In this document: positions 14,984 to 31,867 of the stretch, in pieces
Numbering within the stretch: position 1 is the first letter of the stretch
Layout of the letters: the number at the start of each line of letters is the position of its first letter
Assembly: GCA_902810715.1 (NCBI GenBank)
Contig: CADDYS010000011.1
Span: 1-36,474 of the forward strand
DNA: 36,474 nucleotides
Source: a bacterium
GTDB taxonomy: Bacteria; Actinomycetota; Aquicultoria; Aquicultorales; Aquicultoraceae
Reading direction: 5' to 3'
Translations under genes and position numbers: made by a program
Notes under the pieces: generated by a model
Told to the model about the DNA's origin: nothing
Databases searched by the model: none
What the model saw: the letters and a program-made list of their open reading frames with translations, nothing else

Positions 14984-15017
14984 AACTGCATGACCATTGA
15001 CATCGTCAATTAGTCTT

Positions 15018-15515
15018 CTACCTTACGAACTTTCTCTGAGTCCTGCCAAGGTTCTGGATTGTCATTTTGCCTTTAACAATCTCTTTAGCGATCTTCTTGG
15101 CCCTGTCCATGTCGATGCCAGGAACGAGAAGCTCTTTTCTGGGCTTGCCAGAAGCGTTAAGCCTCTTGATCGCTGCCCTTAGCATAGCGGGATTTCCGCT
15201 TTTTTCGATCTCGGTTGCGATGTCTTTTGGCTTCGCAACGGCTTTTGGCTTAGCAGCAGCTTTAACTACTTTAGCTTTAGCCTTAACGACTTTGGCCTTA
15301 GTTGTTTTAGCCTTCATAGCTTTAGCCTTTGCAACTTTAGCCTTTACTGTCTTAGCCTTAGCAGCTGCTTTAGACTTTGGGGCAGTCTTAGCTTTAGTGG
15401 TCTTAGCCTTGCTGGCAGTAGCCTTTGCGGTAGTGGCTTTACCCTTTGCAGCCTTTGATTTGAACTTTGCTAAAACGCCTTTCTTCGGATTTGCTTTTGC
15501 TTTTACTGTTGCCAT
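15018..15515 (-). CDS. Lys/Ala-rich histone-H1-like DNA-binding protein
   Basis: 165 aa. The N-terminal about 100 residues are almost entirely Lys, Ala, Thr and Val in imperfect KAKTTKAKxVKAKA-type repeats, like the tails of histone H1 and of actinobacterial HU/Lsr2-associated nucleoid proteins. The last about 60 residues form a folded domain (NPAMLRAAIKRLNASGKPRK) ending in IQNLGRTQRKFVR. Probably compacts or coats DNA in the nucleoid. The start is clear: TAGGAGGG lies 6 bases before the ATG. A -35 (TTGCGT, 15605-15610) and -10 (TATAAT, 15581-15586) lie upstream with an 18-bp spacer. It converges on UPF0182 and shares its terminator. The repeat region is likely to vary in length between relatives. 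Confidence 0.8.
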   Translation of the reverse strand: MATVKAKANPKKGVLAKFKSKAAKGKATTAKATASKAKTTKAKTAPKSKAAAKAKTVKAKVAKAKAMKAKTTKAKVVKAKAKVVKAAAKPKAVAKPKDIATEIEKSGNPAMLRAAIKRLNASGKPRKELLVPGIDMDRAKKIAKEIVKGKMTIQNLGRTQRKFVR

Positions 15516-15580
15516 TTTCCCTCCTACATATTATCTGCTTCTACTAGTTGGCATATTGGACAAAGGTTGCATTCTCAGCG

Positions 15581-15610
15581 ATTATACTACATAATATTCC
15601 AGAAACGCAA
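15581..15610 (-). promoter_or_regulatory. Predicted promoter of the histone-like gene
   Basis: Read on the minus strand: TTGCGT (15610-15605), an 18-bp spacer, TATAAT (15586-15581). The -10 is perfect and the -35 matches four of six consensus bases. The transcript would start near 15574, about 58 bases before the ATG. Confidence 0.55.
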
Positions 15611-15881
15611 AGTCCATATACCAAAACTATTTACTGTTATATCGGACAACCAACCCACCACTTTAGTATTTAATTAATAAATTTTAAAAATATTTTTTTC
15701 GTGAGAATCAGTCGACTTGAGTCGCTACTCCCGAGATTGCTTCGCTTTGCTTGCAATGACATAAAAATTACATGTCCCAGTACTAAGCCTTGAAAATCCC
15801 CATGAATTGTCAAGTTAGTTTATAATAATAAAGGGAATGATTGGGCTATCTTGTTCCTCTTGCTAGAAAGGATTTTTAATC
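15611..15881. other. Noncoding AT-rich gap upstream of ddl
   Basis: No gene is visible in this stretch between the divergent histone-like and ddl genes. It contains a very AT-rich run near 15670-15700, a dispersed-repeat copy at 15734-15762, a possible -10 (TATAAT) near 15823-15828 without a good -35, and the AAGGA ribosome site for ddl. Confidence 0.6.
15734..15762. repeat. Dispersed intergenic repeat, TTGCTTGCAATGAC type
   Basis: The stretch contains GATTGCTTCGCTTTGCTTGC and then AATGAC. A related copy in inverse orientation is at 22892-22911 (GTCATTGCGAGCAAGACAAA). Both lie outside genes. This kind of element is seen scattered in many environmental bacterial genomes. Confidence 0.5.
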
Positions 15882-16991
15882 ATGCATAAAAGGACTCGGG
15901 TTGGGATACTCTTTGGAGGCAAATCGGCAGAGCATGAGGTATCGCTCCAATCTGCAAAGAGCATAATTGAGGCGATTGATAAGGAAAAATATGAAGTAAT
16001 TCTAATTGGTATCGATAAGAAAGGTCAGTGGCACCTTAATGAAACCTCAAGGCTTCTTCTTGATACAAGTGGTCCTCAGCTAAATAAGCTAAACGGTGTA
16101 AGCAGTAGTGTCGCCCTGGTCCCGGGAAGAGATAAAGGGCAACTTGTAAACTTATCAAACCCCGAGTCGCTTGAGTCAATAGATGTCGTATTTCCTATTC
16201 TTCATGGGCCATTTGGCGAGGATGGAACGGTCCAGGGACTATTAAAATTGGCAGATATACCATTTGTCGGCCCAGGAGTTCTTGGCTCAGCAGTGGGCAT
16301 GGATAAAGATGTTATGAAGCGTCTATTAAGAGATGCCGGCCTTCCCATAGGTAAGTTTCTCACAATTAACCGCTCCTCAAGAAGCGAAATCGATTTCAAC
16401 GAGGTCGTGACAGAGCTTGGCTTGCCGCTTTTTGTAAAGCCCGCAAACCTGGGCTCATCGGTCGGAATAAACAAGGTTAAAAACAAAGATGATTTTGAGT
16501 ACGCGATAGCCGACGCGTTCAAGTATGACAGCAAGATCCTGATCGAAGAATTTATCAAGGGGCGTGAAATCGAGTGCTCAGTACTTGGAAATGAAAATCC
16601 TGTCGCCTCTATGCCCGGCGAGATAATTCCGCAACACGAGTTCTACGCCTATGCAACAAAGTATATCGATAATGAGGGCGCACGCTTGGAAATTCCGGCA
16701 AAACTTCCCGATGACGCTGTAAAGAAGATTCAAGAACTTGCGGTTAAAACGTTTAAAACACTTTGCTGCGAAGGCATGGGCCGTGTCGACTTCTTCCTTA
16801 AAGATGATGGTGAAGCGATAGTAAATGAGATCAATACCATCCCCGGCTTTACCGAGATAAGCATGTACCCAAAACTTTGGGAGGCCAGCGGAATCCCCTA
16901 CACAGAATTAATAGATAGGCTGATTCAACTTGCAATTGAGAGACATGAGAGAGAACGCGGACTAGAGACTTCTTTTGAGCTTGAGGGTTAA
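15882..16991 (+). CDS. ddl: D-alanine--D-alanine ligase
   Basis: Joins two D-alanines with ATP in the cytosol to make the peptidoglycan dipeptide. The 369 residues follow the Ddl order: N-terminal domain with FGGKSAEHEVSLQSAKSI, substrate-domain FGEDGTVQGLL, ATP-grasp glycine loop (KPANLGSSVGINKV), hinge EEFIKGREIECSVLGN, and the metal-binding C terminus with GRVDFFLKDD and EINTIPGFTEISMYPKLW. Tyr in the EFYAYATKYID loop is typical of Ala-specific enzymes, with no sign of D-Ala-D-Lac type change. The ATG follows AAGGA. It is a single gene, not in a mur cluster. Converges on the hydrogenase operon. Confidence 0.93.
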   Translation: MHKRTRVGILFGGKSAEHEVSLQSAKSIIEAIDKEKYEVILIGIDKKGQWHLNETSRLLLDTSGPQLNKLNGVSSSVALVPGRDKGQLVNLSNPESLESIDVVFPILHGPFGEDGTVQGLLKLADIPFVGPGVLGSAVGMDKDVMKRLLRDAGLPIGKFLTINRSSRSEIDFNEVVTELGLPLFVKPANLGSSVGINKVKNKDDFEYAIADAFKYDSKILIEEFIKGREIECSVLGNENPVASMPGEIIPQHEFYAYATKYIDNEGARLEIPAKLPDDAVKKIQELAVKTFKTLCCEGMGRVDFFLKDDGEAIVNEINTIPGFTEISMYPKLWEASGIPYTELIDRLIQLAIERHERERGLETSFELEG

Positions 16992-17037
16992 TAAAAATAG
17001 GTCAACCATAGGTCTGTGCAACTGCGCGCTTGATAAA

Positions 17038-17535
17038 TCAAGCAACTACAGCACTCTGCAGCTCCTCTATTACTAGCTCGCTTACTCGCTCTATTGCCGC
17101 CTTAACCGGCGGGGTCAACACACCATCCCTTGGCCTTACATCACCAACTTGGATAGCGAAAACGATAATTTCCGGGTTGGCTCCAACAAGTCTCGCATTT
17201 GCAACCAGATGCGGCACACCCATCCCATGGATATTATTTGACCGTAAGCGGACAATATCAGCCTCATCGGGAGTAAAGCGAAAAACCGCACCGGGCTCTG
17301 TCCCTGCGTCGATTGCGTCAACTACCAGAACTACATCCGATTCACGGAAATACCTGATAAGACCCATCCCGACGGTCTCACCAACCACGGCATCGACATC
17401 GAGCCCGGTAAAATCAGAGGAAGAAATAATGGGAAGCAAACTCTGCACAACCGCAACACCTATGCCGTCATCGCCCATCAGCGTATTACCAATGCCGATA
17501 ACGGTGACTCTCTGAATATGCTTCCCATTTCTCAT
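17038..17535 (-). CDS. Hydrogenase maturation endopeptidase (HycI/HyaD family)
   Basis: Cleaves the C-terminal peptide from a hydrogenase large subunit after nickel insertion. The 165 residues start with the family motif VIGIGNTLMGDDGIG (metal-binding Asp in GDD), have DVDAVVGETVG near residue 45 and VVLVVDAIDAG near 70. It is the last gene of the group 1 operon, 3 bases after the cytochrome b stop, with an AGAGGT site before the ATG. Its natural target is the upstream large subunit, which has a 15-residue tail after the last motif His. The group 3b large subunit in this window has no tail and would not need it. Confidence 0.9.
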   Translation of the reverse strand: MRNGKHIQRVTVIGIGNTLMGDDGIGVAVVQSLLPIISSSDFTGLDVDAVVGETVGMGLIRYFRESDVVLVVDAIDAGTEPGAVFRFTPDEADIVRLRSNNIHGMGVPHLVANARLVGANPEIIVFAIQVGDVRPRDGVLTPPVKAAIERVSELVIEELQSAVVA

Positions 17536-17538
17536 TTA

Positions 17539-18189
17539 CTACCTCTTTTTGCCTGGCTCGGGGGACGTTTCGCGCCACCAGAACATCAGCGGCAGTTCTT
17601 GAACCACTTCTACAAACACCAAATATATATGAAGCGCCACGGTAACAACAAACAACCACATAATCAGATAATGAATGATGCGCACGATAACCGGTCCGCC
17701 CAAAGCATATGTCAGCGGCTGGAAAAAGCTTGCTGTCGGCGTCCATAGCTCAAAACCGGTAATCGCTTGCAGTACTATTAAGAATCCCCAGAATGCGTAA
17801 GCCCCCTTCTGCAGTGGATTGTACTTTGCAGTCTTTGGGTGGGTTCGGCGCAAGAAGAAATAGTATTGAAGCATTGGCAGGAACTTGCCCCGATTCTCCG
17901 GCTGCGGTGCGAAAAATTTGTAATCACGTATCTCATGACGCGAGCCGGGTGGGGCCGACCTGCCGATAAACGCCCAGTATAGACGAACCATCGCGGTAGA
18001 TAACAGCACCCATGCGAATATAAGGTGAAACGTCCTGTTGTTTGCCATCGAGCCGCTATAAAACGGTGAGTGGATGAAAAAACCCGTCCATATCAGCACA
18101 CCTATAGCAACTAAGTGAACCCAGTGCGTTACCACCGCAGGCAATGGGTGTTCTTCCCGCGTTGTTTTTATATCGCGTTGCTCGCTCAT
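17539..18189 (-). CDS. Hydrogenase b-type cytochrome membrane subunit
   Basis: Di-haem membrane subunit that passes electrons from the hydrogenase to quinone. Four or more hydrophobic segments are visible, with candidate haem His in HPLPAVVTHWVHLV (about 20-30), FHLIFAWVLL (about 70) and HYLIMWLFVVTVALHIYLVF (about 165-185). The length of about 216 aa fits the HyaC/HupC group. The ATG at 18189 is preferred because AGGGG lies 8 bases upstream. ATG at 18195 or GTG at 18198 are alternatives. The large subunit, once read through its TGA, ends at 18201, so the two genes are tightly coupled. Without the readthrough the gap would be an unexplained 68-77 bases. Confidence 0.87.
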   Translation of the reverse strand: MSEQRDIKTTREEHPLPAVVTHWVHLVAIGVLIWTGFFIHSPFYSGSMANNRTFHLIFAWVLLSTAMVRLYWAFIGRSAPPGSRHEIRDYKFFAPQPENRGKFLPMLQYYFFLRRTHPKTAKYNPLQKGAYAFWGFLIVLQAITGFELWTPTASFFQPLTYALGGPVIVRIIHYLIMWLFVVTVALHIYLVFVEVVQELPLMFWWRETSPEPGKKR

Positions 18190-18200
18190 CCCCATCACCC

Positions 18201-19829
18201 CTAGCGTACCTGGAACTTGAGTACCCGGTTATGCTCCGGTTCAATCACGTGAACCGCACAGGCCATTCACGGGTCAAATGTGTGTACAACCCTTAGTATC
18301 TCAAGCGGCTTTGCCGGATCAACTACCGGCATACCGATTAACGCCTCTTCAACCGGGCCACGTACACCCTTGTCGTCGCGGGGAGATAAGTTCCAGTTCG
18401 ACGGCGGAACGGCAGCGTACGTGCCGACAAGCTTGTTTTTAATTCTTATGTAGTGGCTAAGGGCACCTCGGGGTGCATCCCAACCGCTTACTCCGGTGCC
18501 GCTATCCGGTATGGGTTTCTGTATGAAAACGTTGGTTTTCCCACCCTTGATGTTGGCGAGAAGCTCATCGGCCCAGCGCGTGGCATTATCAGCATTTATC
18601 TTTGCCTTAAGGACACGCGCCGCAATCCGCCCCAGATTTGACATAAGAAGATCGACCCGGCCCGGGGCACCGATGGCTGCAAGTGTGCTATCTACAAGAT
18701 TCTTGGCCTCTGTGCGCCCGGACAAATACGCAACCAGCATCTGTGCGAGCGGGCCGACCTCCATCGGCCGGTTCTCATCCCCGTAGCGTGCCGCCTGGGT
18801 CCAATCGTACTTGCCCTTAACCGGGCCCGGATTATCAAGCGGATCCAGGCCGGTAAAGTCCATCGGCTCCTGCCCGACACTAAGCGGGTGCTTGCCTTCA
18901 CCTATTCTATCGGGATAATACGAGTACTTGGTATACATCCTCGCCTTATTTGGATCGACTTTTTCAACCTTGAGCTTGCGATCGAATATCCCTCCTCTTG
19001 GAAAAAGGCGGTCGTAAGGATCCTGGCTCTTCTCATCGAGTACACCCCAGGTAAGGTAGTTGCCGACACCCTTTCCGGTATTGGCAAGGTCGATGTAAAA
19101 TGGAGCGATAGTCAGTAGATCGGGAACCATCACATCGTTGATAAATGTTCGCACCTGATCCATCTGGCTTCGATAGAACGTTATTTCCTCAATTGTCGGC
19201 AACTGAGTCACGCCACTCGGAACCATATTCATAATCATCGGGTACTTACCGCCCAGATATGTTGCGGCATCGTTTGCAGCCTGCTGTGCATCTATTGCCT
19301 GCAGATAGTGGGCCGTAAGCTCAAGGTCAAGATCGGGGGGTAACTTGTAGCCTGGATGGTCCCAGTACATATTCGCAAACGGACCGAGCTGGCCTGAGTT
19401 AACTACAGCCCTTACCTGATCCTGAACGTTTTTAAGCGATGGCGTAGTCGGCTTGGCGTTAAGTGCGTTCGGTACGTTTACGTAATCAAACGCATTGAGG
19501 ATGTAAAACCAAAGGATATGGTCGTAGCCGATCTGCGCAGCCTCCATCATGTTGCGAATAAGTCGCGCATTATCATCGATCTTCTCAATCCCCATCGCGT
19601 GCTCCACCGCTTGAACGGAGTTTATCGCGTGAGGTGTCGGGCAAACACCGCATATCCTCTGGGCGAAATGCCAGATACCAAACGGGTCGCGGTTTTTCAT
19701 AAATATCTCAAAACCGCGAAATAAGGTGCAGGTATTCCACGCATCGGTAACCCTGCCATTCTCGACGATGCAGGTGATGCGAAGATGGCCTTCAATACGC
19801 GTTATGGGATCAATAACTACTTTTGCCAT
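18201..19829 (-). CDS. [NiFeSe] hydrogenase large subunit with in-frame TGA (selenocysteine)
   Basis: Catalytic subunit of a group 1 membrane-bound uptake hydrogenase. The N-terminal metal motif is RICGVCPTPH (about residue 60). The C-terminal motif normally reads DPCxxCxxH; here it is D-P-TGA-M-A-C-A-V-H, the TGA (18269-18267) replacing the first Cys codon. Read through as Sec, the frame continues V-I-E-P-E-H-N-R and on to a TAG at 18203-18201, giving 542 residues. The 15-residue tail after His matches the peptide removed by maturation proteases such as the one downstream. A predicted SECIS hairpin follows the TGA. The 1-base overlap with the small-subunit stop (TAATG) shows coupling. A normal caller would truncate it at 18267. 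No sel genes lie in the window. A plain nonsense mutation is the alternative, but the tail, hairpin and small-subunit Cys argue against it. Confidence 0.88.
18237..18256 (-). promoter_or_regulatory. Predicted bacterial SECIS hairpin
   Basis: On the minus strand, 10 nt after the TGA, CGGTTCA (18256-18250) pairs perfectly with TGAACCG (18243-18237) around the loop CGTGAT (18249-18244). The loop lies about 17-22 nt past the TGA and has a G in its second position and a GU step, both usual for bacterial SECIS elements, which bind SelB within the coding sequence. Folding energy was not computed. Confidence 0.72.
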
Positions 19830-20953
19830 TAGGAACTACCCCCTTTAGAGCCTTTTGAACTTTCTTCTTGCTCAGGAGGCCCGCCTTTTCCCAGCCTACC
19901 CGTCGCAACCTGACCAATGAAATGAGCCCCAAGGCCAACGGCCGTCGCAATACCGATCGCTTCACCGATTTGAGTCGGCGTTGCACCGCCAAGACCCGGG
20001 GGTGTTACGTTTGCTACGGGCTGGTAAAATGGGGTGAGCTTGTCCCAGAACTTGGGCTCAGCGCAACCGATACATGGACCATTGCGGACGCACCAGCCCA
20101 GGTGACCATTCCACTTGCGCGTTGGGCACGGGGCATTTGTGACCGGTCCCTTGCATCCCACTTTGAATAGACAGAAGCGGTTCTGCGAGGCCTCATCTCC
20201 AAATACTTCCACGAATTCACCGGCATCGAAGTGACCTCGTCGCTCGCAGTTGTCATGTATTAATTGTCCATAGAGAAATACAGGGCGACCGATCGCATCC
20301 AGCTCGGGAACTTTGTTATTTATGAGGATGTAGCTAAGTATGGCAAGCGTATCTTCGGCGTTGCCGGGACACCTCGGGCTATTAACAACCACCGGATTGG
20401 CAATACCGGCATCTTCTCTTAAAAATGCGGCAAGTCCTTTTGCGCCAGTCGGGTTCGGTGCTGCTGCCTGGATATTTCCATCGCTTGCACAGCTTCCTAT
20501 GGCAATAGTGGCCTTGGCTTTTTTGTAAGTCTGCCTAGCTATGTCCATTGATGTCTCGCCGTGAACAGTCATTGCACCGGGAACCTTGGTTGCAATTGCA
20601 CCCTCGACAATATAATAGAAATCTCCTCTATCCACCGTATCGCGAAAACTCTTCTCCGCCTGATCACCGGCCGCCGCCATGACCGTCTCGTGGTAATCAA
20701 GTGAAATCTGTCTTAAAATTAAATTGGCTACGCTCGGCGTCCTGCTTTGCAAAAGATTGACGCTGCACCCGAGGCATTCCTGGAAAAGCGACCACACAAC
20801 TGCAGGCCGCTTAGCCAACTTCTCAATAGCGGACGCTATGTCTGGGGCTGCCGTCTCCCCTAACCCGATGATAGCCCCCAGCACGCCGCAGTATTTGAGA
20901 AACTCCCGCCGCGTGATTCGAGGGAAAAACGCTAGTTCCTCGTCGTCTCGCAT
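19829..20953 (-). CDS. [NiFe(Se)] hydrogenase small subunit, Tat-exported
   Basis: Electron-transfer subunit with three Fe-S clusters, 374 aa. A twin-arginine signal (TRREFLKYCG followed by a hydrophobic stretch) carries the folded heterodimer across the membrane. The proximal cluster motif is ECLGCSVNLL and the distal one has HDNCERRGHF with RFCLFKVGC. At the medial cluster GWCVRNGPCIGC has Cys (codon 20092-20090) where standard [NiFe] enzymes have Pro, giving four Cys and a likely [4Fe-4S], as in [NiFeSe] enzymes. A C-terminal hydrophobic segment (about 325-348) anchors it. The ATG at 20953 is chosen for its GGAGGTGGAGT site; the frame is open to 21085. Its stop overlaps the large-subunit ATG. 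Confidence 0.92.
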   Translation of the reverse strand: MRDDEELAFFPRITRREFLKYCGVLGAIIGLGETAAPDIASAIEKLAKRPAVVWSLFQECLGCSVNLLQSRTPSVANLILRQISLDYHETVMAAAGDQAEKSFRDTVDRGDFYYIVEGAIATKVPGAMTVHGETSMDIARQTYKKAKATIAIGSCASDGNIQAAAPNPTGAKGLAAFLREDAGIANPVVVNSPRCPGNAEDTLAILSYILINNKVPELDAIGRPVFLYGQLIHDNCERRGHFDAGEFVEVFGDEASQNRFCLFKVGCKGPVTNAPCPTRKWNGHLGWCVRNGPCIGCAEPKFWDKLTPFYQPVANVTPPGLGGATPTQIGEAIGIATAVGLGAHFIGQVATGRLGKGGPPEQEESSKGSKGGSS

Positions 20954-21010
20954 ACTCCACCTCCACTCCCTATACCCATCGGCAATCTGCCACCGTACAT
21001 TTTTGAAGCT

Positions 21011-21040
21011 TATATACCCACTACTGAACTTACTTAACAA
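21011..21040 (-). promoter_or_regulatory. Predicted promoter of the group 1 hydrogenase operon
   Basis: Read on the minus strand: TTGTTA (21040-21035), an 18-bp spacer, TATATA (21016-21011). It lies about 58 bases before the small-subunit ATG and would start a 50-base leader. No clear operator beside it. Confidence 0.5.
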
Positions 21041-21186
21041 TTGCTTACCGCTTTTTAGAAAAAACCAAGATAATAGAGCAAGCAAAATTTTTACCCGTAT
21101 TGATACGAGCGGGATCTCATGGGTAATAAAATGTTATGAGCAAAAGAGATGGCTGGGGTGGGCTTATAGCCGGAATCATCCATTAA

Positions 21187-22830
21187 TTAATCAAACGCCG
21201 GCTCGTTTTCAGGTAATATTTGTGTCTGCTCAGCCAACAATTCAAGCCCAGCTTCTTCCCCGGGAAGGCGCTCCGAGTGGCTTTTGCGAAGAGCGATCTC
21301 CTTCATGAAGAACATGAGGATAACCCCAACAGCTATCATAAACGTGGCGATATAAAATATTCCGGTGATACTATCGGATAATGCTAGACGTAGATCGCCC
21401 ATCATGACAAAGAACGATTTTTGGGCGACCGGCGGCATCTTTGCTACAATGCCCTTTATCTCACCCAGCTTCATGAGCGACTCTGGGTTTTTCGTGCTCT
21501 CAAGTAGTTGCTTGGGCAATATCTGCAGCGTCTGCGCGTGTTTTACAAATAAATTCCCCAGCTCGTCCTTAAGATTGTTGTTCATGAGGCTCCCCATGAT
21601 CGCAACTCCAACCGTGCCCCCAATTGAGCGGAAGAACTGGGTTGCTGCCGTAACGACCCCGAGCTTGCTATGCGAAAATGCGTTCTGCACCGCAATAGTA
21701 AAGATCGGCATGGTCGTCCCGAGACCTCCGCCCAAAAGAATCATATCCCGCACAACTTCAGAGTTTTGTGTATGAACCGTCATGATAGACAGTAGATACA
21801 TGCCGAATGTTGCCGCTATTAGACCTACAATACCTAGAATCTTATATTTGCCAACTCTTGACATTACCTGCCCCGTAATCGTACTTGTAACCACCATTGA
21901 TATCATCATCGGGAAAAGAAGCAATCCTGAGTTTGTTGCGGTCTTTCCTACAACCCCCTGTATAAAAACCGGGATGTAGGCGATCGTCCCAAACATGCCC
22001 ACTCCGGTTATGAGCAAAATCGCAACGGACACTGTAAAGATACTGTTTTTAAACAGGCTCAGATCGATGATAGGCTCTTCCGCCCTGCTCTCAGCAAAGA
22101 TAAATGCAAGAAGCATCACCCCGGAGCCTGTGAAAAGACCTATGATCTCGTTTGAGCCCCATGGGTACGTTGAGCCACCCCAAACCAAAGCAAGTAGAAG
22201 CGGCACAACACATGCAAGAAGGGCCGCGGAACCCCACCAATCGATCCTGCGCCCCTTATGTCTGGCGATAGCCGGCAACACCTTTGCCAGAACGAAAATC
22301 GCCATGATACCAAACGGGATATTTATGTAAAAGTTCCACCGCCAACTCAAATTATCCGTTATGTAACCGCCTGCAAGCGGCCCAAGTATGCTCGCCAAAC
22401 CAAATACAGCGCCCATGACCCCGCCCCACTTGCCTCGCTCAGCAGGCGGGAAAATATCGCCGATTATCGCAAATGCATTGGCCATCATCGCACCGCCGCC
22501 GATACCTTGCAGGCCGCGGAAAATAATTAGCTGGGTCATGGATTGAGATGCTCCTGAAAGTATCGAGCCAACAACAAAAATTATGATTCCGCCGATGTAA
22601 AACCACTTACGTCCATAGATGTCTGAGAGCTTGCCGTAAATAGGAACCGAGGCCGTCGAGCCGAGCATGTACGCGGTAAAGACCCATGAGAGCATATCAA
22701 GACCGCCGAGTTCGCTGACAATCTTCGGCATAGCCGTCCCCACTATAGTTTGGTCAAGCGCCCCAAGCAGCATCCCGAAAAACACACCAACCATGATCAA
22801 TATCTTCTGTCTCTGCGGAAGTGTATCCAA
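21187..22830 (-). CDS. MFS drug exporter, DHA2 (EmrB/QacA) family
   Basis: Proton-driven exporter of the 14-segment DHA2 family, 547 aa. The N-terminal [15 protein letters not shown] matches the family's LDxTIVNVALP motif, motif A is [11 protein letters not shown], and motif C is in [15 protein letters not shown] Glu/Pro-rich cytosolic tail follows the last segment. The start is TTG at 22830, with GAGGTGA six or so bases upstream. Substrate unknown, probably hydrophobic drugs or metabolites. The AbrB-like gene lies 103 bases upstream on the same strand and may control it. Confidence 0.88.
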
Positions 22831-22891
22831 TCACATCACCTCACAACTTAATTTTTACGTATTAGTAGGTACCGCATACCTTAATTTTTGC

Positions 22892-22911
22892 GTCATTGCG
22901 AGCAAGACAAA
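22892..22911. repeat. Dispersed intergenic repeat, inverse copy
   Basis: GTCATTGCGAGCAAGACAAA, whose reverse complement matches the element at 15734-15762 in its TTGCTyGCAATGAC core. It lies between the AbrB-like and MFS genes and might affect read-through between them. Confidence 0.45.
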
Positions 22912-22933
22912 TCATAGCGCATGTGATGGTGCA

Positions 22934-23173
22934 CTAGCCTTCAACAACACGATTTAGAATCTGCTCCATGCTTTGCGCTTTGTTTGTCAGATGCTCTACT
23001 AAACGGCTTAACTGCTCGGCCTTTACCATGAGAAGCCCGCTGTTGTGCGGTGCCGTAAAAAAGAGCATTTTACTGCCGGGTTCAATACCGAGAGTTCGCC
23101 TGGCCTCCGCCGGTATTGAAATCTGACCCCGCTCCCCAACCGTGGCTGTACCTAGGAACGATGTATCATGCAT
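22934..23173 (-). CDS. AbrB/MazE/SpoVT-type DNA-binding protein
   Basis: A 79-aa swapped-hairpin AbrB-family protein. The motif VGERGQISIPAEARRTLGIEPGSKM is split here as GERGQISIPAEARRTLGI and EPGSKMLFF; it is the usual DNA-binding beta-alpha-beta unit. The C terminus (LSRLVEHLTNKAQSMEQIL) is a helix that could mediate dimers or effector contact. An AAAGGAGG site lies 13 bases before the ATG. The upstream 23195-23225 stretch has repeated, partly palindromic TACAT/ATGTA sequences, possible autoregulation sites. No toxin partner follows, so a transcription regulator of the MFS gene is more likely than an antitoxin. Confidence 0.82.
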   Translation of the reverse strand: MHDTSFLGTATVGERGQISIPAEARRTLGIEPGSKMLFFTAPHNSGLLMVKAEQLSRLVEHLTNKAQSMEQILNRVVEG

Positions 23174-23417
23174 AAGTTAGAAGCAACCTCCTTTACATGA
23201 TAATGCATGTAATGTATGAGGATACCACGGGCAGCTATCTTGGTCAACAGAAAAAGGAAGGGGCCAGACATAAGGTCATAAGAAATAAGCTGGTGCAAAA
23301 AATTATCCGTGGCCGTGTTTTTATTAAGGGCCACCTTAAAAGATAAGTTTTTCGCATATCCCGTTTGGGTAACGAATGGTTGTACTGCGAAAAGTTGAAT
23401 CAGGATAAGGTGGCGAT

Positions 23418-24965
23418 ATGAACGGTAATATTAATAACCCTGATGAAGGGCACGTATCTCGTGGTTGGCCCCATTCGCTCTGGATAGATACCACCCTAGA
23501 TACCAACTACCCTGTGCTTGAACAAAATATCGAGGTAGACACAGTAATTTTAGGTGGGGGCATTGTCGGTATTACAACGGCAATACTCTTAAAAGATGCG
23601 GGACAAACTGTAGCCGTCGTCGAGATGCACAAGATAGTAAAAAGCGTAACAGGCCATACCACCGCCAAAGTTTCTGCCCTTCATGGGCTAAAATACCACA
23701 AGCTTTTGAGAAACTTCACAGAGAAAAAGGCGCGTGTCTACGCAGAGGCAAACATGACAGCAATTGAGAAAGTTGCCTCCCTGGTTCAGCAAAGAAGCAT
23801 CGACTGTGATTTCAAGCGCACCTCCGCCTACACCTACACCGAATTAGACAACAATCTGGGTGAGATTAAGAGAGAATTGGAGGCAACGCAAAAGCTGGGG
23901 CTTCCAACATCCTTTGTCGTGGATACACCCTTGCCATTTGAAATTAAAGGTGCGGTTTGCCTTGATAACCAGGCCCAATTTCATCCACGCAAATATCTAC
24001 TTGCTTTGGCCAATAGTATTCCAGGCGACGGCAGCCATGTCTTTGAAAACACTCGGGCATTTAGTACAGAAGAGGGTGAGCCCTGTGTGGTTTCTACTAA
24101 TCAGGGTGATATCCGAGCCAAAAACGTAGTCCTTGCGACCGCCTTTCCTTTTCACGACACAGGGCATTTCTACGCTAAGCTTTACCCCTACTGCTTCTAC
24201 TTAACCGGCATGCACATCAAGAATGACGTGCCCGAGGGCATGTATTACAGTGACGATGGAGGCTCTCACTCGATTCGTAACCAGCCCACCGACGATGGAC
24301 TCCTTCTTATAGTTGGCGGTGGCCATCACAAAACCGGGCAAGGCGGCGATACGTTTAAGCGGTACCAGGAAGTCGAGGACTATGCCAGGGAGCGATTTGA
24401 TACCAAATCGGTAAATTATTACTGGTCGACAGAGGATTACAGCACCCCCGACATGGTGCCTTATATCGGCAAGGCTCCGAAAACCAACCACATATATATG
24501 GCCACCGGATTTGCCGGCTGGGGTATGACCAACAGCACGGTCTCGGCCATGCTTATCTCCGACTTGATTTTGGGGCGGGATAACCCCTGGGCGTCCTTCT
24601 TTGACCCATCGCGCCACGACATCGCCCAGTACGGCGGAACGTTTATGGCCGAGGGCATAAACATTGTCGAACAATACGGCAAGGAATACCTCACAAGTTT
24701 CGAAAAGATGGACCCGGCCGATTTAGCCGAGGGTGAAGGTAAGCTCATAAGAGCCGATGATAAGAAAATCGCCGCCTTTAAAGACGATGAGGGCAAAATC
24801 TACACCCTCTCGCCTTCCTGTGTCCATATGGGATGCCTAGTTAGCTGGAATGCCGCCGAGAGAACCTGGGACTGCACATGTCACGGCTCTCGTTATAACT
24901 TCAACGGTGAGGTCATACATGGCCCGGCGACCGGAGACCTGCCCGAAGAGGAATTAGGACAGTAA
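23418..24965 (+). CDS. FAD-dependent oxidoreductase with C-terminal Rieske domain
   Basis: A 515-aa DAO-type flavoprotein fused to a Rieske [2Fe-2S] domain. The dinucleotide-binding motif VILGGGIVGITTAILLKDAG is near residue 43, and ATGFAGWGMTNSTVSAMLI is the C-terminal FAD-contact segment (about 360). The Rieske cluster ligands are CVHMGC (about 472) and CTCH (about 493), giving C-x-H and C-x-x-H. Such fusions are widespread but their substrate is uncertain. It is probably cytosolic, since no signal peptide is seen. A GGTGG site precedes the ATG. It stands alone on the plus strand and converges on the SHOCT gene. Confidence 0.87.
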   Translation: MNGNINNPDEGHVSRGWPHSLWIDTTLDTNYPVLEQNIEVDTVILGGGIVGITTAILLKDAGQTVAVVEMHKIVKSVTGHTTAKVSALHGLKYHKLLRNFTEKKARVYAEANMTAIEKVASLVQQRSIDCDFKRTSAYTYTELDNNLGEIKRELEATQKLGLPTSFVVDTPLPFEIKGAVCLDNQAQFHPRKYLLALANSIPGDGSHVFENTRAFSTEEGEPCVVSTNQGDIRAKNVVLATAFPFHDTGHFYAKLYPYCFYLTGMHIKNDVPEGMYYSDDGGSHSIRNQPTDDGLLLIVGGGHHKTGQGGDTFKRYQEVEDYARERFDTKSVNYYWSTEDYSTPDMVPYIGKAPKTNHIYMATGFAGWGMTNSTVSAMLISDLILGRDNPWASFFDPSRHDIAQYGGTFMAEGINIVEQYGKEYLTSFEKMDPADLAEGEGKLIRADDKKIAAFKDDEGKIYTLSPSCVHMGCLVSWNAAERTWDCTCHGSRYNFNGEVIHGPATGDLPEEELGQ

Positions 24966-27776: not shown

Positions 27777-27792
27777 AAGAAATCGATTGGTT

Positions 27793-28896
27793 ATGAAATC
27801 AAAAATAAAGGCATTAAAATTAGAAAACCTAAATATTTTAATTGAGGCAGTATCGCAAAAGTACCGCGCGTATGGCCCGGTTGCTAAAGATGGAGAGCAT
27901 GCTTTTAAAGTAATTGATCCTGAAAGCAAGCTGTATTTAGGTTGTGCCGCCACCATGCTCCCGGCAAAATACATACTTCAACCGGTTTGGCAGGACCTTT
28001 ACTCCTTTAAGCTTGGCAACGGCTTTCAGATAGAAGAACCGCGCCTTGATGAAAAACTTGCCGTCTTTGGTATCAGTCCCTGCGATGTAAATGCATTACT
28101 CGCGCTTGACCGGGTCTTTGGGGGCAAGTTTGCCGATCCCTACTATTGGAAAAGGCGTGAAAATACGCTTATCGTTGCGGCCAATTGCACCGAAGTCTCA
28201 AAAGAAAGTTTTTGTACATCCTGGGATACAGGGCCCGAGCTTTACTCAAATTATGATCTGCTGATAACAGAACTTTCCGACGGCTACATCCTCGAAGTTG
28301 GAAGTGCAAAAGGTGAAAACGTTGTCGCTCAGTTAAGCCTTGCCGAAGCAACACAAGATGATCTAAATGAGAAAACGGCAAGGCTTGACAGCGCACGTGC
28401 CAATACGGAGAAGAAGCTACCCGTCGCCCCAGATAACCTGCACCAGTTTTTTAGAGAACGTTTTAATCATCCGGCATGGGTACCGAACTCAGATGCCTGC
28501 TTCTCGTGTGGTAATTGTACTATTGTTTGCCCGACCTGCTACTGCTTTGATATAAGAGACGAGATCATGCCAAGCCGGAATGCCGGTGTTCGCCGTTCAG
28601 AATGGGACTCATGCCAGCTATTGGAATTTGCCGAAGTCGGCTTTCGGGCTAATTTCAGGCGCCCCCGGATCGACCGTTTCAAACATAGAACAATACATAA
28701 ACTCTCCTGGATGAAACAGCAGTACGGTTTGACGGGTTGCGTCGGTTGCGGCCGCTGTGTTCGCTGGTGCCCATCCTGGCCTGAAAGACGGGGGCGCGTA
28801 ACATCACTTGCCGACCCCGTCGAAATCATCGCAGACTTGATGGAGCCGCTCGAAAAGTACAAGGGCGTTGAAATACCCGTGAGAGAAGCAGCATGA
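27793..28896 (+). CDS. Group 3b hydrogenase beta subunit (Fe-S protein)
   Basis: Electron-transfer subunit of a cytosolic bidirectional (sulf)hydrogenase, about 367 aa. The N-terminal half resembles the HydB/anaerobic sulfite-reductase A family (KLGNGFQIEEPRLDEKLAVF, GISPCDVNALLALDRVF). Two 4Fe-4S motifs follow: CFSCGNCTIVCPTC (about 235) and CVGCGRCVRWCPS (about 315). After the second, the tail (WPERRGRVTSL) is unlike the GIDIT-type sequence I would expect. Start choice: ATG at 27793 is preferred; TTG at 27787 is also in frame. The ribosome site is weak, consistent with coupling to the GAF gene. Symbol hydB or hyhB depends on the naming used. Confidence 0.85.
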   Translation: MKSKIKALKLENLNILIEAVSQKYRAYGPVAKDGEHAFKVIDPESKLYLGCAATMLPAKYILQPVWQDLYSFKLGNGFQIEEPRLDEKLAVFGISPCDVNALLALDRVFGGKFADPYYWKRRENTLIVAANCTEVSKESFCTSWDTGPELYSNYDLLITELSDGYILEVGSAKGENVVAQLSLAEATQDDLNEKTARLDSARANTEKKLPVAPDNLHQFFRERFNHPAWVPNSDACFSCGNCTIVCPTCYCFDIRDEIMPSRNAGVRRSEWDSCQLLEFAEVGFRANFRRPRIDRFKHRTIHKLSWMKQQYGLTGCVGCGRCVRWCPSWPERRGRVTSLADPVEIIADLMEPLEKYKGVEIPVREAA

Positions 28897-28925
28897 GGGC
28901 GCAAGCTAATGGAGGGCAAAACTAG

Positions 28926-29768
28926 ATGAAAAATCCCTATATTGCCCATCCGGCAATAATTACTAATATCCGCCAAGAGACAGCCGAAACAAAAACGTAT
29001 ACCCTTGAGTTTACCAAACAGAAGCGCGGTTTAGTGTTCATCCCGGGACAGTTTAATATGATTTCCTTGCTTGGCTTTGGAGAAGGGCCTTTCTCGATAA
29101 CCTCATCGCCTCTGCGGAAAGAGATTTTTGAGCATACAATTCGTCTTGTAGGCAGCCTTACAGGACAGATCAATCGGTTAAATGTAGGAGATATTGTAGG
29201 AATACGGGGGCCTTACGGCAGCGGTTGGCCGGTAGGTTTAGCAAAGAACAAAGACCTTCTAATCATCGCCGGCGGCGTCGGCCTTGCCCCGCTTCGCGGC
29301 CTAATCGATATGGCCATAGAACAAAGAAATGGCTTTGGAGAAGTTGAAATCATGTACGGCTCCCGTAAACCAGAAAATCTTATCTTTACAAGCGATTATG
29401 ATAACTGGCGCTCGGCCCCAAACATAAGGCTTTTTTTAACCGTCGATGAGGTACCTAAAGGGATTGAATGGCCATACGGGCAAGGCGTCGTGACCAACCT
29501 GCTTAAGTTTTCAAAAATTAACCCGGCAAACGCTCTTGCCTTTATATGCGGCCCTGAAATTATGATGCGCTTTATCGTCCGCTCGCTCCTTATAAGAGAA
29601 TTTGCTGAGAAGAATATATTTGTCTCGATGGAGAGGCGTATGGAGTGCGGCATGGCAAAATGCGGGCGTTGCATGATCGGGCCCAAGTATGTGTGCACAG
29701 ATGGACCGGTTTTTTCTTACCCGGAAGTAAAGGCCCTGCCGCACAATCTTTTGGCAGCAAGTTTGTAG
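28926..29768 (+). CDS. Group 3b hydrogenase gamma subunit (FAD/NAD(P) and [2Fe-2S])
   Basis: Diaphorase-like subunit of 280 aa, connecting the Fe-S chain to NAD(P)H. A ferredoxin-reductase fold is visible: FIPGQFNMISLLGFGEGPFS with the FAD-binding ITSSP, then GPYGSGWP, and IIAGGVGLAPLRGLI for the pyridine nucleotide. The C-terminal cysteines ECGMAKCGRCMIG and YVC bind [2Fe-2S]. A GGAGG site lies 10 bases before the ATG. It sits between the beta and delta subunit genes in the expected order. Whether NAD or NADP is used is not evident. Confidence 0.87.
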   Translation: MKNPYIAHPAIITNIRQETAETKTYTLEFTKQKRGLVFIPGQFNMISLLGFGEGPFSITSSPLRKEIFEHTIRLVGSLTGQINRLNVGDIVGIRGPYGSGWPVGLAKNKDLLIIAGGVGLAPLRGLIDMAIEQRNGFGEVEIMYGSRKPENLIFTSDYDNWRSAPNIRLFLTVDEVPKGIEWPYGQGVVTNLLKFSKINPANALAFICGPEIMMRFIVRSLLIREFAEKNIFVSMERRMECGMAKCGRCMIGPKYVCTDGPVFSYPEVKALPHNLLAASL

Positions 29769-29778
29769 GAGGCATAAA

Positions 29779-30615
29779 TTGACAGCAAGTGCCAATAGTA
29801 ACAACGGTAAAGTAAAAACTGCGGTTTTTAAATTCACATGCTGCGCGGGGTGCCAGTTTGCCCTGCTTTATTTCTTTGACCAACTTCCAGAAACCCTCGA
29901 GCTTCTTGATTTTGTCTATTTTAAAATGGCCAGGCGAAAAGAACTGGATGAGCCTTATGACCTTGCTCTTATCGAAGGCGGCGTGAGCACACCGGAGCAT
30001 ATCGAGCAACTAAAGGCGATCCGCAAGCAAGCTAAGACATTGGTTGCCTTTGGAGCTTGTGCGGCTCACGGGGGCGTCCCGTCCATCAAGGATTGGCAAA
30101 GAGAGTTGGCCGTTGAAGAGCGAGTCTATCCTGATCCTCTTCTAATAAATTCGATAAAGGTAAGCCCTGTTGACGAATTTGTAAAGGTTGATCATTACTT
30201 GCGGGGATGCCCGATTGATGAAGTTGAGTTTATGGAATTGATAAGATCGATTGCATCTGATAAAAGCCCATATATTAGAGAGCATCCGGTCTGTGTTGAG
30301 TGCAAACTTAGAAATAATATCTGCATACTTCTCATGCGTGAAGGCGTACAAGAGAGTATGTGCTTGGGGCCTGTAACGAGAGCCGGTTGCCGTGCCATCT
30401 GCACATCCAACATGCGGGCTTGCTTTGGGTGCCGGGGACCGATGAGTAATCCCAACATACCGGAGATGGTTCGCACCTTTAAGGCAAAAGGATTTAGCGC
30501 AAAAGATATCGAGATGCGCTTTACAGAGTATGCCGGGATGAGCACCGAGTTTAGTGAAGGAGCTAGAGCTTACTATGGCAGAAAAGCACCGTATTACCAC
30601 CGGAAAGCCGCTTGA
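29779..30615 (+). CDS. Group 3b hydrogenase delta (small) subunit
   Basis: Small subunit with the proximal and further 4Fe-4S clusters, 278 aa. Motifs: CCAGCQFALLYFF (about 23), GACAAHGGVPSI (about 98), RGCPIDEVEF (about 140), then CVECKLRNNICILL and CLGP..AGCRAIC with FGCRGP. No Tat signal, so the complex stays in the cytosol. The start is TTG at 29779, supported by a TAGGAGG site (29766-29772). The gene overlaps the alpha-subunit gene by 41 bases. Confidence 0.88.
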   Translation: MTASANSNNGKVKTAVFKFTCCAGCQFALLYFFDQLPETLELLDFVYFKMARRKELDEPYDLALIEGGVSTPEHIEQLKAIRKQAKTLVAFGACAAHGGVPSIKDWQRELAVEERVYPDPLLINSIKVSPVDEFVKVDHYLRGCPIDEVEFMELIRSIASDKSPYIREHPVCVECKLRNNICILLMREGVQESMCLGPVTRAGCRAICTSNMRACFGCRGPMSNPNIPEMVRTFKAKGFSAKDIEMRFTEYAGMSTEFSEGARAYYGRKAPYYHRKAA

Positions 30616-31867
30616 GAAACAAGTAAAAGTTGATTATCTGGCAAGGACTGAGGGAGAAGCCGGGATACACGCACTCGTCTCAGATAGCGAGGTAAAGGAG
30701 CTTAAGTTTAATATCTGGGAGCCGGCAAGGTTTTTCGAAGGCTTCCTTGTCGGCAGGATGTATTACGAAGTGCACGACCTCGTATCAAGGATATGCGGTA
30801 TATGCCCCGTATCGCACTCAACAACAGCGCTAAGGGCTCTAGAGAAGGCTACCGGCGTTGAGGTAAGCGAGCAAACAAAAATATTACGCCGTATTTTATC
30901 GCGCAGTCAAATTGCAGCAAGCCATATAATCCATCTTTACATGCTCGCCGCCCCCGACTATTTGGGCCATGACAGCATAATCCCTGTCGTGCAAGAAAAT
31001 CCCGATATTTTCAAGCGTTTTTATAGAATGAAGACGGCGGTTAATAATCTAACCACGGTAATTGGCGGCCGTGCCCTCCATACAATGACTGCAATTTTCG
31101 GCGGCTTTACCCGCATACCTTCGCGGAAAAACCTCTTAAAAGCGGCAGATAATCTAAAAGAAATAAAAGATGATGCCCTGGAAACCGTAAGATTTATAGA
31201 TAGCCTGCCAATCCCGGAGTTTTACAGTGAAAACATTTATGTTTCTTTGAAGGGAGAGAATGCTTATCCCGTAAACGAAGGGCGTCTGGCATCAACCTCG
31301 GGCATTGATGTCTCTGAGGGTGAATATCGTAACCATTTTACTGAGCGGCAACTTCCCTACACCAACTCCAAATACTCAAGCCTAGACGGTAAAGATTCTT
31401 TTATGGTCGGCGCCCTGGCGAGAATAAACCAAAACTTTGATTTGCTTTCAAGCGATGCTAAAGCAATTGCGGCTGAAACTGGTTTTATGGTTCCAAGCCG
31501 CAATCCATATTTGAATAATCTTGCCCAGGCAATTGAAATAGTAGACGGCATAGAAGATTGCATCGGCTTAATTGACGGTCTTCACCCGAAGGAAGAAAAA
31601 CCATCTTACACCATAAAAGAAGGAGAAGCCGGTGCAATAACCGAGGCGCCGCGCGGTCTTCTTTATCATTTTTACCGCGTCTCAAAAAATGGAGTGATCG
31701 AGAAGGCGGATATCGTCACCCCAACAGCGCACAACGCTTTCAATATTGAAAAAGACCTTAATCTTCTTCTTCCAACAATCGGCCATTTGGATGAAGAGAC
31801 AATAACCATGCGCTGTGAAGAGCTAATCCGCGCATACGACCCCTGTTTTTCGTGCTCCGTTCATTAA
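30575..31867 (+). CDS. Group 3b hydrogenase alpha (large) subunit lacking a C-terminal extension
   Basis: Catalytic [NiFe] subunit of 430 aa. The N-terminal motif is RICGICPVSHS and the C-terminal one is DPCFSCSVH. All four nickel Cys are coded as Cys. The reading frame ends exactly after the last His (TAA at 31865-31867), so there is no peptide for a maturation endopeptidase to remove, whereas most members of the wider family, including characterised group 3b enzymes, carry one. The ATG at 30575 is chosen over the open frame from 30554 because GAAGGAG lies 11 bases upstream. It overlaps the delta gene. Likely function is reversible H2 exchange with NAD(P)H. Confidence 0.9.
   Translation: MAEKHRITTGKPLEKQVKVDYLARTEGEAGIHALVSDSEVKELKFNIWEPARFFEGFLVGRMYYEVHDLVSRICGICPVSHSTTALRALEKATGVEVSEQTKILRRILSRSQIAASHIIHLYMLAAPDYLGHDSIIPVVQENPDIFKRFYRMKTAVNNLTTVIGGRALHTMTAIFGGFTRIPSRKNLLKAADNLKEIKDDALETVRFIDSLPIPEFYSENIYVSLKGENAYPVNEGRLASTSGIDVSEGEYRNHFTERQLPYTNSKYSSLDGKDSFMVGALARINQNFDLLSSDAKAIAAETGFMVPSRNPYLNNLAQAIEIVDGIEDCIGLIDGLHPKEEKPSYTIKEGEAGAITEAPRGLLYHFYRVSKNGVIEKADIVTPTAHNAFNIEKDLNLLLPTIGHLDEETITMRCEELIRAYDPCFSCSVH

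Follow-up and report, generated by a model that had tools for sequence, protein, structure and literature searches.

In crystallised [NiFeSe] hydrogenases, a selenocysteine (Sec) in the large subunit and a medial iron-sulfur site with four cysteines in the small subunit come together. Can the medial cysteine be taken, in turn, as evidence that an enzyme contains Sec? The question is raised by a hydrogenase operon in the window, by which we mean the whole 36,474-nucleotide stretch of DNA analyzed here. Judged from its genes, the operon encodes a group-1 hydrogenase with a predicted Sec, and its host belongs to the Candidatus Aquicultor family (Actinomycetota). Here, we examine where the medial cysteine of this enzyme lies, what argues for Sec in its large subunit, and how the two characters are distributed among related enzymes.

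A hydrogenase operon with an in-frame TGA

The small-subunit gene (19829..20953, minus strand) encodes 374 residues counted from the ATG at 20953 and ends with a stop codon at 19829, where the large-subunit gene adjoins. It is identified by TIGR00391 (hydrogenase small subunit, subfamily hydA; 323.9 bits, cut-off 179.5), by alignments and by a structure model. The protein has a twin-arginine signal (TIGR01409, 21 bits, cut-off 16.7), a predicted C-terminal helix and 12 of the 12 expected Fe-S ligands: four Cys for the proximal cluster, four Cys for the medial cluster, and a His and three Cys for the distal cluster. The large subunit (18201..19829, minus strand; PF00374, 491 bits) has 542 residues when read through the TGA, with the motif DP-U-MACAVH followed by a 15-residue tail. 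Two further genes on the same strand encode a Ni/Fe-hydrogenase b-type cytochrome subunit (17539..18198; TIGR02125, 125.9 bits, cut-off 121.5) and a hydrogenase maturation endopeptidase (17038..17535; TIGR00072, 107.7 bits, cut-off 47.45, and PF01750).

An AlphaFold model of the small subunit, which represents the chain without its clusters, reached a pLDDT of 88.6 when built from a 73-row alignment (A4). In a Foldseek search with this model, the best 50 matches listed included [NiFe] small subunits with TM-scores, by target length, of 0.82-0.94; [NiFe] structures ranked first, and no [NiFeSe] entry appeared among those 50. A model from a 9-row alignment (A3) was set aside as useless in its C-terminal part, with pLDDT mostly below 40 from about residue 230.

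The window holds several other features. A second hydrogenase operon (27787-31867, plus strand) encodes a 4Fe-4S protein, an FAD/NAD-binding subunit, and small and large subunits; these resemble NAD(P)-linked sulfhydrogenases and have an ordinary TGT codon in the motif DPCFSCSVH. A 165-residue protein (15018-15515, minus strand) consists mostly of Lys/Ala repeats and is similar in character to histone-H1-type DNA-binding proteins, with no match in Pfam. Near the right end lies a gene for a DDE-domain transposase (PF01609; 35149-36366, plus strand).

Evidence for selenocysteine in the large subunit

The TGA (18267..18269, minus strand) takes the place of the first Cys codon in the C-terminal DPCxxC motif, and we read it as selenocysteine, U521. 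The frame that follows it, MACAVHVIEPEHNRVLKFQVR, is conserved across homologues, and selA, selB and a tRNA-Sec(UCA) gene lie side by side on contig C119 of the window's genome. The locus thus combines the two features that define a [NiFeSe] enzyme in the broad sense, a TGA at this codon and Sec machinery in the same genome. Ten nucleotides downstream of the TGA is a SECIS-like hairpin, CGGTTCA-CGTGAT-TGAACCG (18237..18256, minus strand). A hairpin in the same register, with at least 6 of 7 pairs, follows 21 of 26 distinct TGA segments compared to 1 of 126 segments with TGC or TGT, although the TGA rows are related and the counts do not represent independent trials. Codon choice within the hairpin appears frozen in the TGA genes: isoleucine is ATT in 22/22 (6/30 with TGC or TGT), and glutamate is GAA in 21/21 (6/16 with TGC or TGT). 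The helix is shifted and has a different sequence in three loci (L063, L067 and L131), and another variant is found in L064. In one TGA gene (L075, G002:C6:58500-65000), the region tested contains no SECIS-like hairpin, its best helix having 4 bp, and in this the gene stands apart from the other 25 TGA segments. We also compared mean folding energies downstream of the codon as a possible SECIS test, but TGA genes (-13.08 kcal/mol) did not differ from TGC/TGT genes (-13.15 kcal/mol), and a search of window positions 15000-23500 returned no Rfam family.

Sec in the large subunit is very likely, given the recoding machinery, the hairpin and the conservation of the frame past the TGA. Were the TGA a genuine stop or a sequencing error, the operon would encode an ordinary DPC [NiFe] enzyme with a four-Cys medial cluster, and many DPC enzymes of the phylum do have this same medial motif. 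Yet many genomes that were assembled independently have a TGA at this same codon, the frame MACAVHVIEP is conserved past it, and the hairpin with its frozen codons is accompanied by a full set of Sec machinery, so that we consider a stop or an error highly improbable and retain the reading of the TGA as Sec. In one TGA-containing locus from the same genus (L053, G002:C1:4000-10500), the orthologous operon looks broken, through decay or assembly error: its small subunit is interrupted, and its large subunit is split over two frames.

Cys288 occupies the medial-cluster position

The cysteine at issue, Cys288, is encoded by the TGC at 20090..20092 (minus strand; residue 288 from the ATG at 20953), within positions 20098-20063, which translate as GWCVRNGPCIGC. 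It is the fourth ligand of the medial cluster. The other three, identified from alignments and all on the minus strand, are Cys276 in the sequence CPTRKW (20126..20128), which is invariant in alignment A3, and the two cysteines of CIGC, Cys294 (20072..20074) and Cys297 (20063..20065). First-pass annotation of this DNA, in a range (20081-20100) that spans part of the medial motif only, had placed Cys288 where [NiFe] enzymes have a proline. This placement is correct: phmmer against the PDB sets Cys288 over the proline found in the small subunits of the [NiFe] enzymes 1h2a, 1e3d and 1h2r (W-C-V over W-P-V), with a one-residue gap that falls later, before PCIGC, and the two MAFFT alignments displayed, one of 15 small subunits and the other of 9, agree in assigning it to this Cys/Pro column.

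The further claim that [NiFeSe] enzymes have a cysteine here is equally supported by the crystallised small subunits 2wpn (WNGGVNWCVQNAVCIGC) and 1cc1 (WNNGINWCVENAVCIGC), which have in common with the window (WNGHLGWCVRNGPCIGC) the spacing C-x11-C-x5-C-x2-C. The PDB alignment to these two chains was made with L075, from the window's genus, and the window was compared by the shared motif. The annotation had also noted that the local spacing is one residue shorter, as a possible difficulty for the alignment; the spacing is indeed shorter than in [NiFe] enzymes, but it poses no obstacle, because the flanking spacings match those of the real [NiFeSe] enzymes 2wpn and 1cc1. The sequence comparisons thus confirm Cys288 at the medial-cluster position, aligned with the Cys of the [NiFeSe] crystal structures. 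The residue is kept in 6/6 orthologous loci of the same family besides the window (L049-L054), and also in L169, which is apparently the same contig as L051.

Given four Cys at the site, a medial [4Fe-4S] cluster is likely in the window's enzyme, although a fourth Cys is no guarantee of such a cluster. In excerpts from the literature, the [NiFeSe] medial cluster is a [4Fe-4S] (PMC10779653), Cys in place of Pro is a [NiFeSe] feature (PMC4070099), and a Pro-to-Cys mutant of the Desulfovibrio fructosovorans enzyme has a medial [4Fe-4S] (PMC3701524, PMC4070099). Also according to an excerpt, H2-sensing regulatory hydrogenases share the medial Cys with [NiFeSe] enzymes (PMC3701524).

The medial cysteine is a poor guide to selenocysteine

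We paired two characters in each genome, namely the medial residue of the small subunit and, in the C-terminal motif of the large subunit, the codon in the place of the first Cys (Sec for TGA, DPC for a Cys codon). A first set comprised 31 stretches from a 60-genome search and 60 more, chosen at roughly one per genus among the phylum-search genomes with a match (156 of 396), most of that search's low-scoring tail being left out. It gave 92 small-subunit rows including the window, 81 of them with a readable large-subunit motif: 18 Sec+Cys, 4 Sec+Pro, 48 DPC+Cys, 4 DPC+Pro and 7 DPC+Val/Ala. A second set of 80 loci nearest the window's group (82 rows once the window is added, 77 of them paired) yielded 65 DPC+Pro, 5 Sec+Pro, 4 Sec+Cys, 2 DPC+Cys and 1 DPC+Lys (a second row of L246), in proportions that are not those of nature, as these loci were picked for likeness to the window. 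The sets overlap (for example, L174 and L166 are in both). Dereplication removed partnerless rows, fragments, gap and Lys rows, and rows at least 92% identical to a kept row, leaving 128 of 155: 14 Sec+Cys, 8 Sec+Pro, 46 DPC+Cys, 54 DPC+Pro, 4 DPC+Val and 2 DPC+Ala.

Among these 128 pairs, a medial Cys is present in 14/22 Sec and 46/106 DPC enzymes (Fisher p 0.10), far from what a marker found with Sec and missing otherwise would show. In Actinomycetota alone, the difference runs in the opposite direction (14/22 Sec versus 44/54 DPC, Fisher p 0.14). The window's genome itself encodes a second group-1 hydrogenase (L072, G000:C18:24000-30300) that combines a medial Cys with TGC at the Sec position. 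Since the medial Cys accompanies 46 of 106 DPC enzymes, L072 included, it is not sufficient for [NiFeSe], and since 8 of the 22 TGA enzymes have Pro, it is not necessary either; by these predicted protein pairs, it is neither a sufficient nor a necessary feature of a Sec enzyme.

The first-pass annotation had argued that the medial Cys, being encoded in a different gene from the TGA, lends separate support to a [NiFeSe] assignment, and our survey does not bear this out. Viewing the residue as a [NiFeSe] hallmark, and hence as independent support for a selenocysteine enzyme, agrees with its presence, at identical spacing, in both [NiFeSe] crystal sequences and with its description in print as a [NiFeSe] feature (excerpts of PMC4070099 and PMC10779653). 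The many DPC enzymes that have the Cys, among them one from the same genome, and the TGA enzymes that lack it make this view unlikely, as does the small number of independent pairs in the tree: three were usable, so few that significance is out of reach, and none was significant. The hairpin and the recoding machinery are far stronger support for Sec than the medial Cys, and the lesson for annotation is that this residue should not serve as evidence for Sec.

A contracted loop next to the fourth ligand

Between the fourth ligand and CxxC, the loop is five residues long (x5) rather than six (x6) in 10/22 Sec rows and in the two [NiFeSe] crystal sequences, compared to 0/98 DPC rows with a W-anchored motif; 8 further DPC rows are off-pattern and x6 by eye. 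The raw Fisher value for 10/22 Sec versus 0/106 DPC is 3e-9, a figure that ignores the kinship of the rows. A single clade of all x5 rows is rejected (p-AU 0.0003), in line with a narrower small-subunit marker in which the contracted loop, and not the Cys, goes with Sec. Against such a marker, the idea is post hoc, 12/22 Sec rows are x6, x5 is found with Pro as well as with Cys, and most x5 rows form one clade with the window, and a joint clade of these with the [NiFeSe] crystals survives the topology test (p-AU 0.17), so that independent origins are few. We consider a loop marker possible but rather doubtful, and treat the association, which is post hoc and confounded with clade, as a lead and not as a finding.

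A sister clade with proline and a predicted selenocysteine

In the small-subunit tree, the window is one of 13 rows, 5 of them Sec+Cys and 8 Sec+Pro, that group together with full support; within this group, the Sec+Pro rows form one clade surrounded by Sec+Cys rows. The large-subunit tree, built separately, agrees, with a 12-row set at support 100, a next larger set of 15 rows at 99, and then one of 26 rows, including 10 DPC+Cys, at 99. These are quick trees, and the topology tests were named after the tree was seen. Given that the Sec+Pro clade lies among Sec+Cys rows, the simplest reading is a Cys-to-Pro change inside a Sec lineage; on these gene trees, the medial ligand switched in one orthologous group while the predicted Sec stayed.

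The Sec+Pro enzymes, the sister clade most closely related to the window's enzyme, come from other Actinomycetota (L110, L111, L112, L166 and L170-L173), and their small subunits are 64-68% identical to the window's. Like the window, they have the TGA, the downstream hairpin (8/8 genes) and a large-subunit gene adjoining that of the small subunit; unlike the window, they have a medial Pro and, in 5/8, an x6 loop. In all four Sec+Pro genomes searched (G254, G359, G062 and G293), selB scores above its cut-off and tRNA-Sec is found at 68-72 bits; selB alone is not diagnostic, as it is found also in DPC genomes (for example G049, G085 and G060). Within genus g78, one species has a Sec+Pro enzyme (L111, G359), and another has a different, Sec+Cys enzyme (L121, G319). 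No Sec+Pro enzyme is described in the titles and abstract openings of the papers that a literature search listed on [NiFeSe] enzymes, medial clusters, Actinobacteria selenoproteins and Aquicultor hydrogenases.

A single clade of all Sec rows is rejected (p-AU 7e-7), in a sample where Desulfovibrio [NiFeSe] enzymes are represented by the two crystal sequences. We also considered independent origins of Sec in the window's clade and in the Desulfovibrio enzymes, and make no such claim: the two are separate in the tree, yet their joint clade, as given above, is not rejected at p-AU 0.17.

A proposed mode of action

We propose that the operon most probably encodes an exported, cytochrome-b-linked Sec group-1 hydrogenase, in which Cys288 is a trait that tunes the electron wire and is evolutionarily separable from Sec; Cys288 would be compatible with [NiFeSe] but no test of it. 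In our model, H2 would be split at a Ni-Fe center with Sec521 as a ligand, and electrons would pass from the proximal [4Fe-4S] cluster (four Cys) to a medial [4Fe-4S] cluster (four Cys including Cys288) and a distal [4Fe-4S] cluster (His and three Cys), and then through the b cytochrome to a quinone, probably menaquinone. Here we infer the types of the clusters, the way the electrons run and the partner in the membrane, whereas the sequence, the set of ligands, the homology and the match of Cys288 to the [NiFeSe] crystal Cys are direct observations.

For the wider group, we give about even odds to a scenario in which Sec and the fourth medial Cys evolve separately, the Sec+Pro clade has a predicted medial [3Fe-4S] cluster, and the x5 loop is an accommodation to Sec with more than one origin. 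Sec enzymes with such a [3Fe-4S] cluster would depart from the usual account of [NiFeSe] enzymes, in which the medial cluster is a [4Fe-4S]. The new element, Sec uncoupled from the medial ligand, is seen in relatives of the window's enzyme and not in the window itself. The high H2-evolution activity and oxygen tolerance of [NiFeSe] enzymes are under discussion, and the sister clades with Cys+Sec and Pro+Sec provide a natural experiment for separating the contributions of the two features.

Comparison with known hydrogenases

The [NiFeSe] enzymes of Desulfovibrio vulgaris Hildenborough (2wpn, 3ze6) and Desulfomicrobium baculatum (1cc1) share with the window both the C-x11-C-x5-C-x2-C medial motif and Sec in place of the first Cys in their C-terminal DPCxxC. 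They differ in that the window's operon includes a b cytochrome gene, and the small-subunit tree places them apart from the window, although one clade is not rejected. By PDB search score, the window's small subunit resembles [NiFe] crystal structures more than [NiFeSe] ones (265 versus 196 bits). All three curated [NiFeSe] HysAB models score far below their cut-offs (NF045520, small subunit, 237 bits of 470; NF045518, large subunit, 337.2 of 780; NF045519, protease, 62.3 of 190), as does NF033181, NiFeSe_hydrog (452 of 600). HydDB, in an excerpt, places [NiFeSe] variants within group 1a (PMC5037454).

Among the periplasmic [NiFe] enzymes of D. vulgaris Miyazaki (1h2a), D. gigas, D. fructosovorans and Allochromatium vinosum (3myr) are the window's best matches by sequence (1h2a) and by fold (3myr). 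The [NiFe] chains examined (1h2a, 4upe) have a medial Pro and an x6 loop, unlike the window, and the large subunit of periplasmic [NiFe] enzymes has Cys where the window has Sec. Engineered parallels to Cys288 exist as well: Ralstonia MBH-P242C, for which solved structures titled with that name exist (7odg/7odh), and D. fructosovorans P238C both have a Cys at the Cys288 position. These are laboratory mutants of Pro-type DPC enzymes, neither natural nor Sec-containing, whereas the window's operon pairs the same medial Cys with a predicted Sec.
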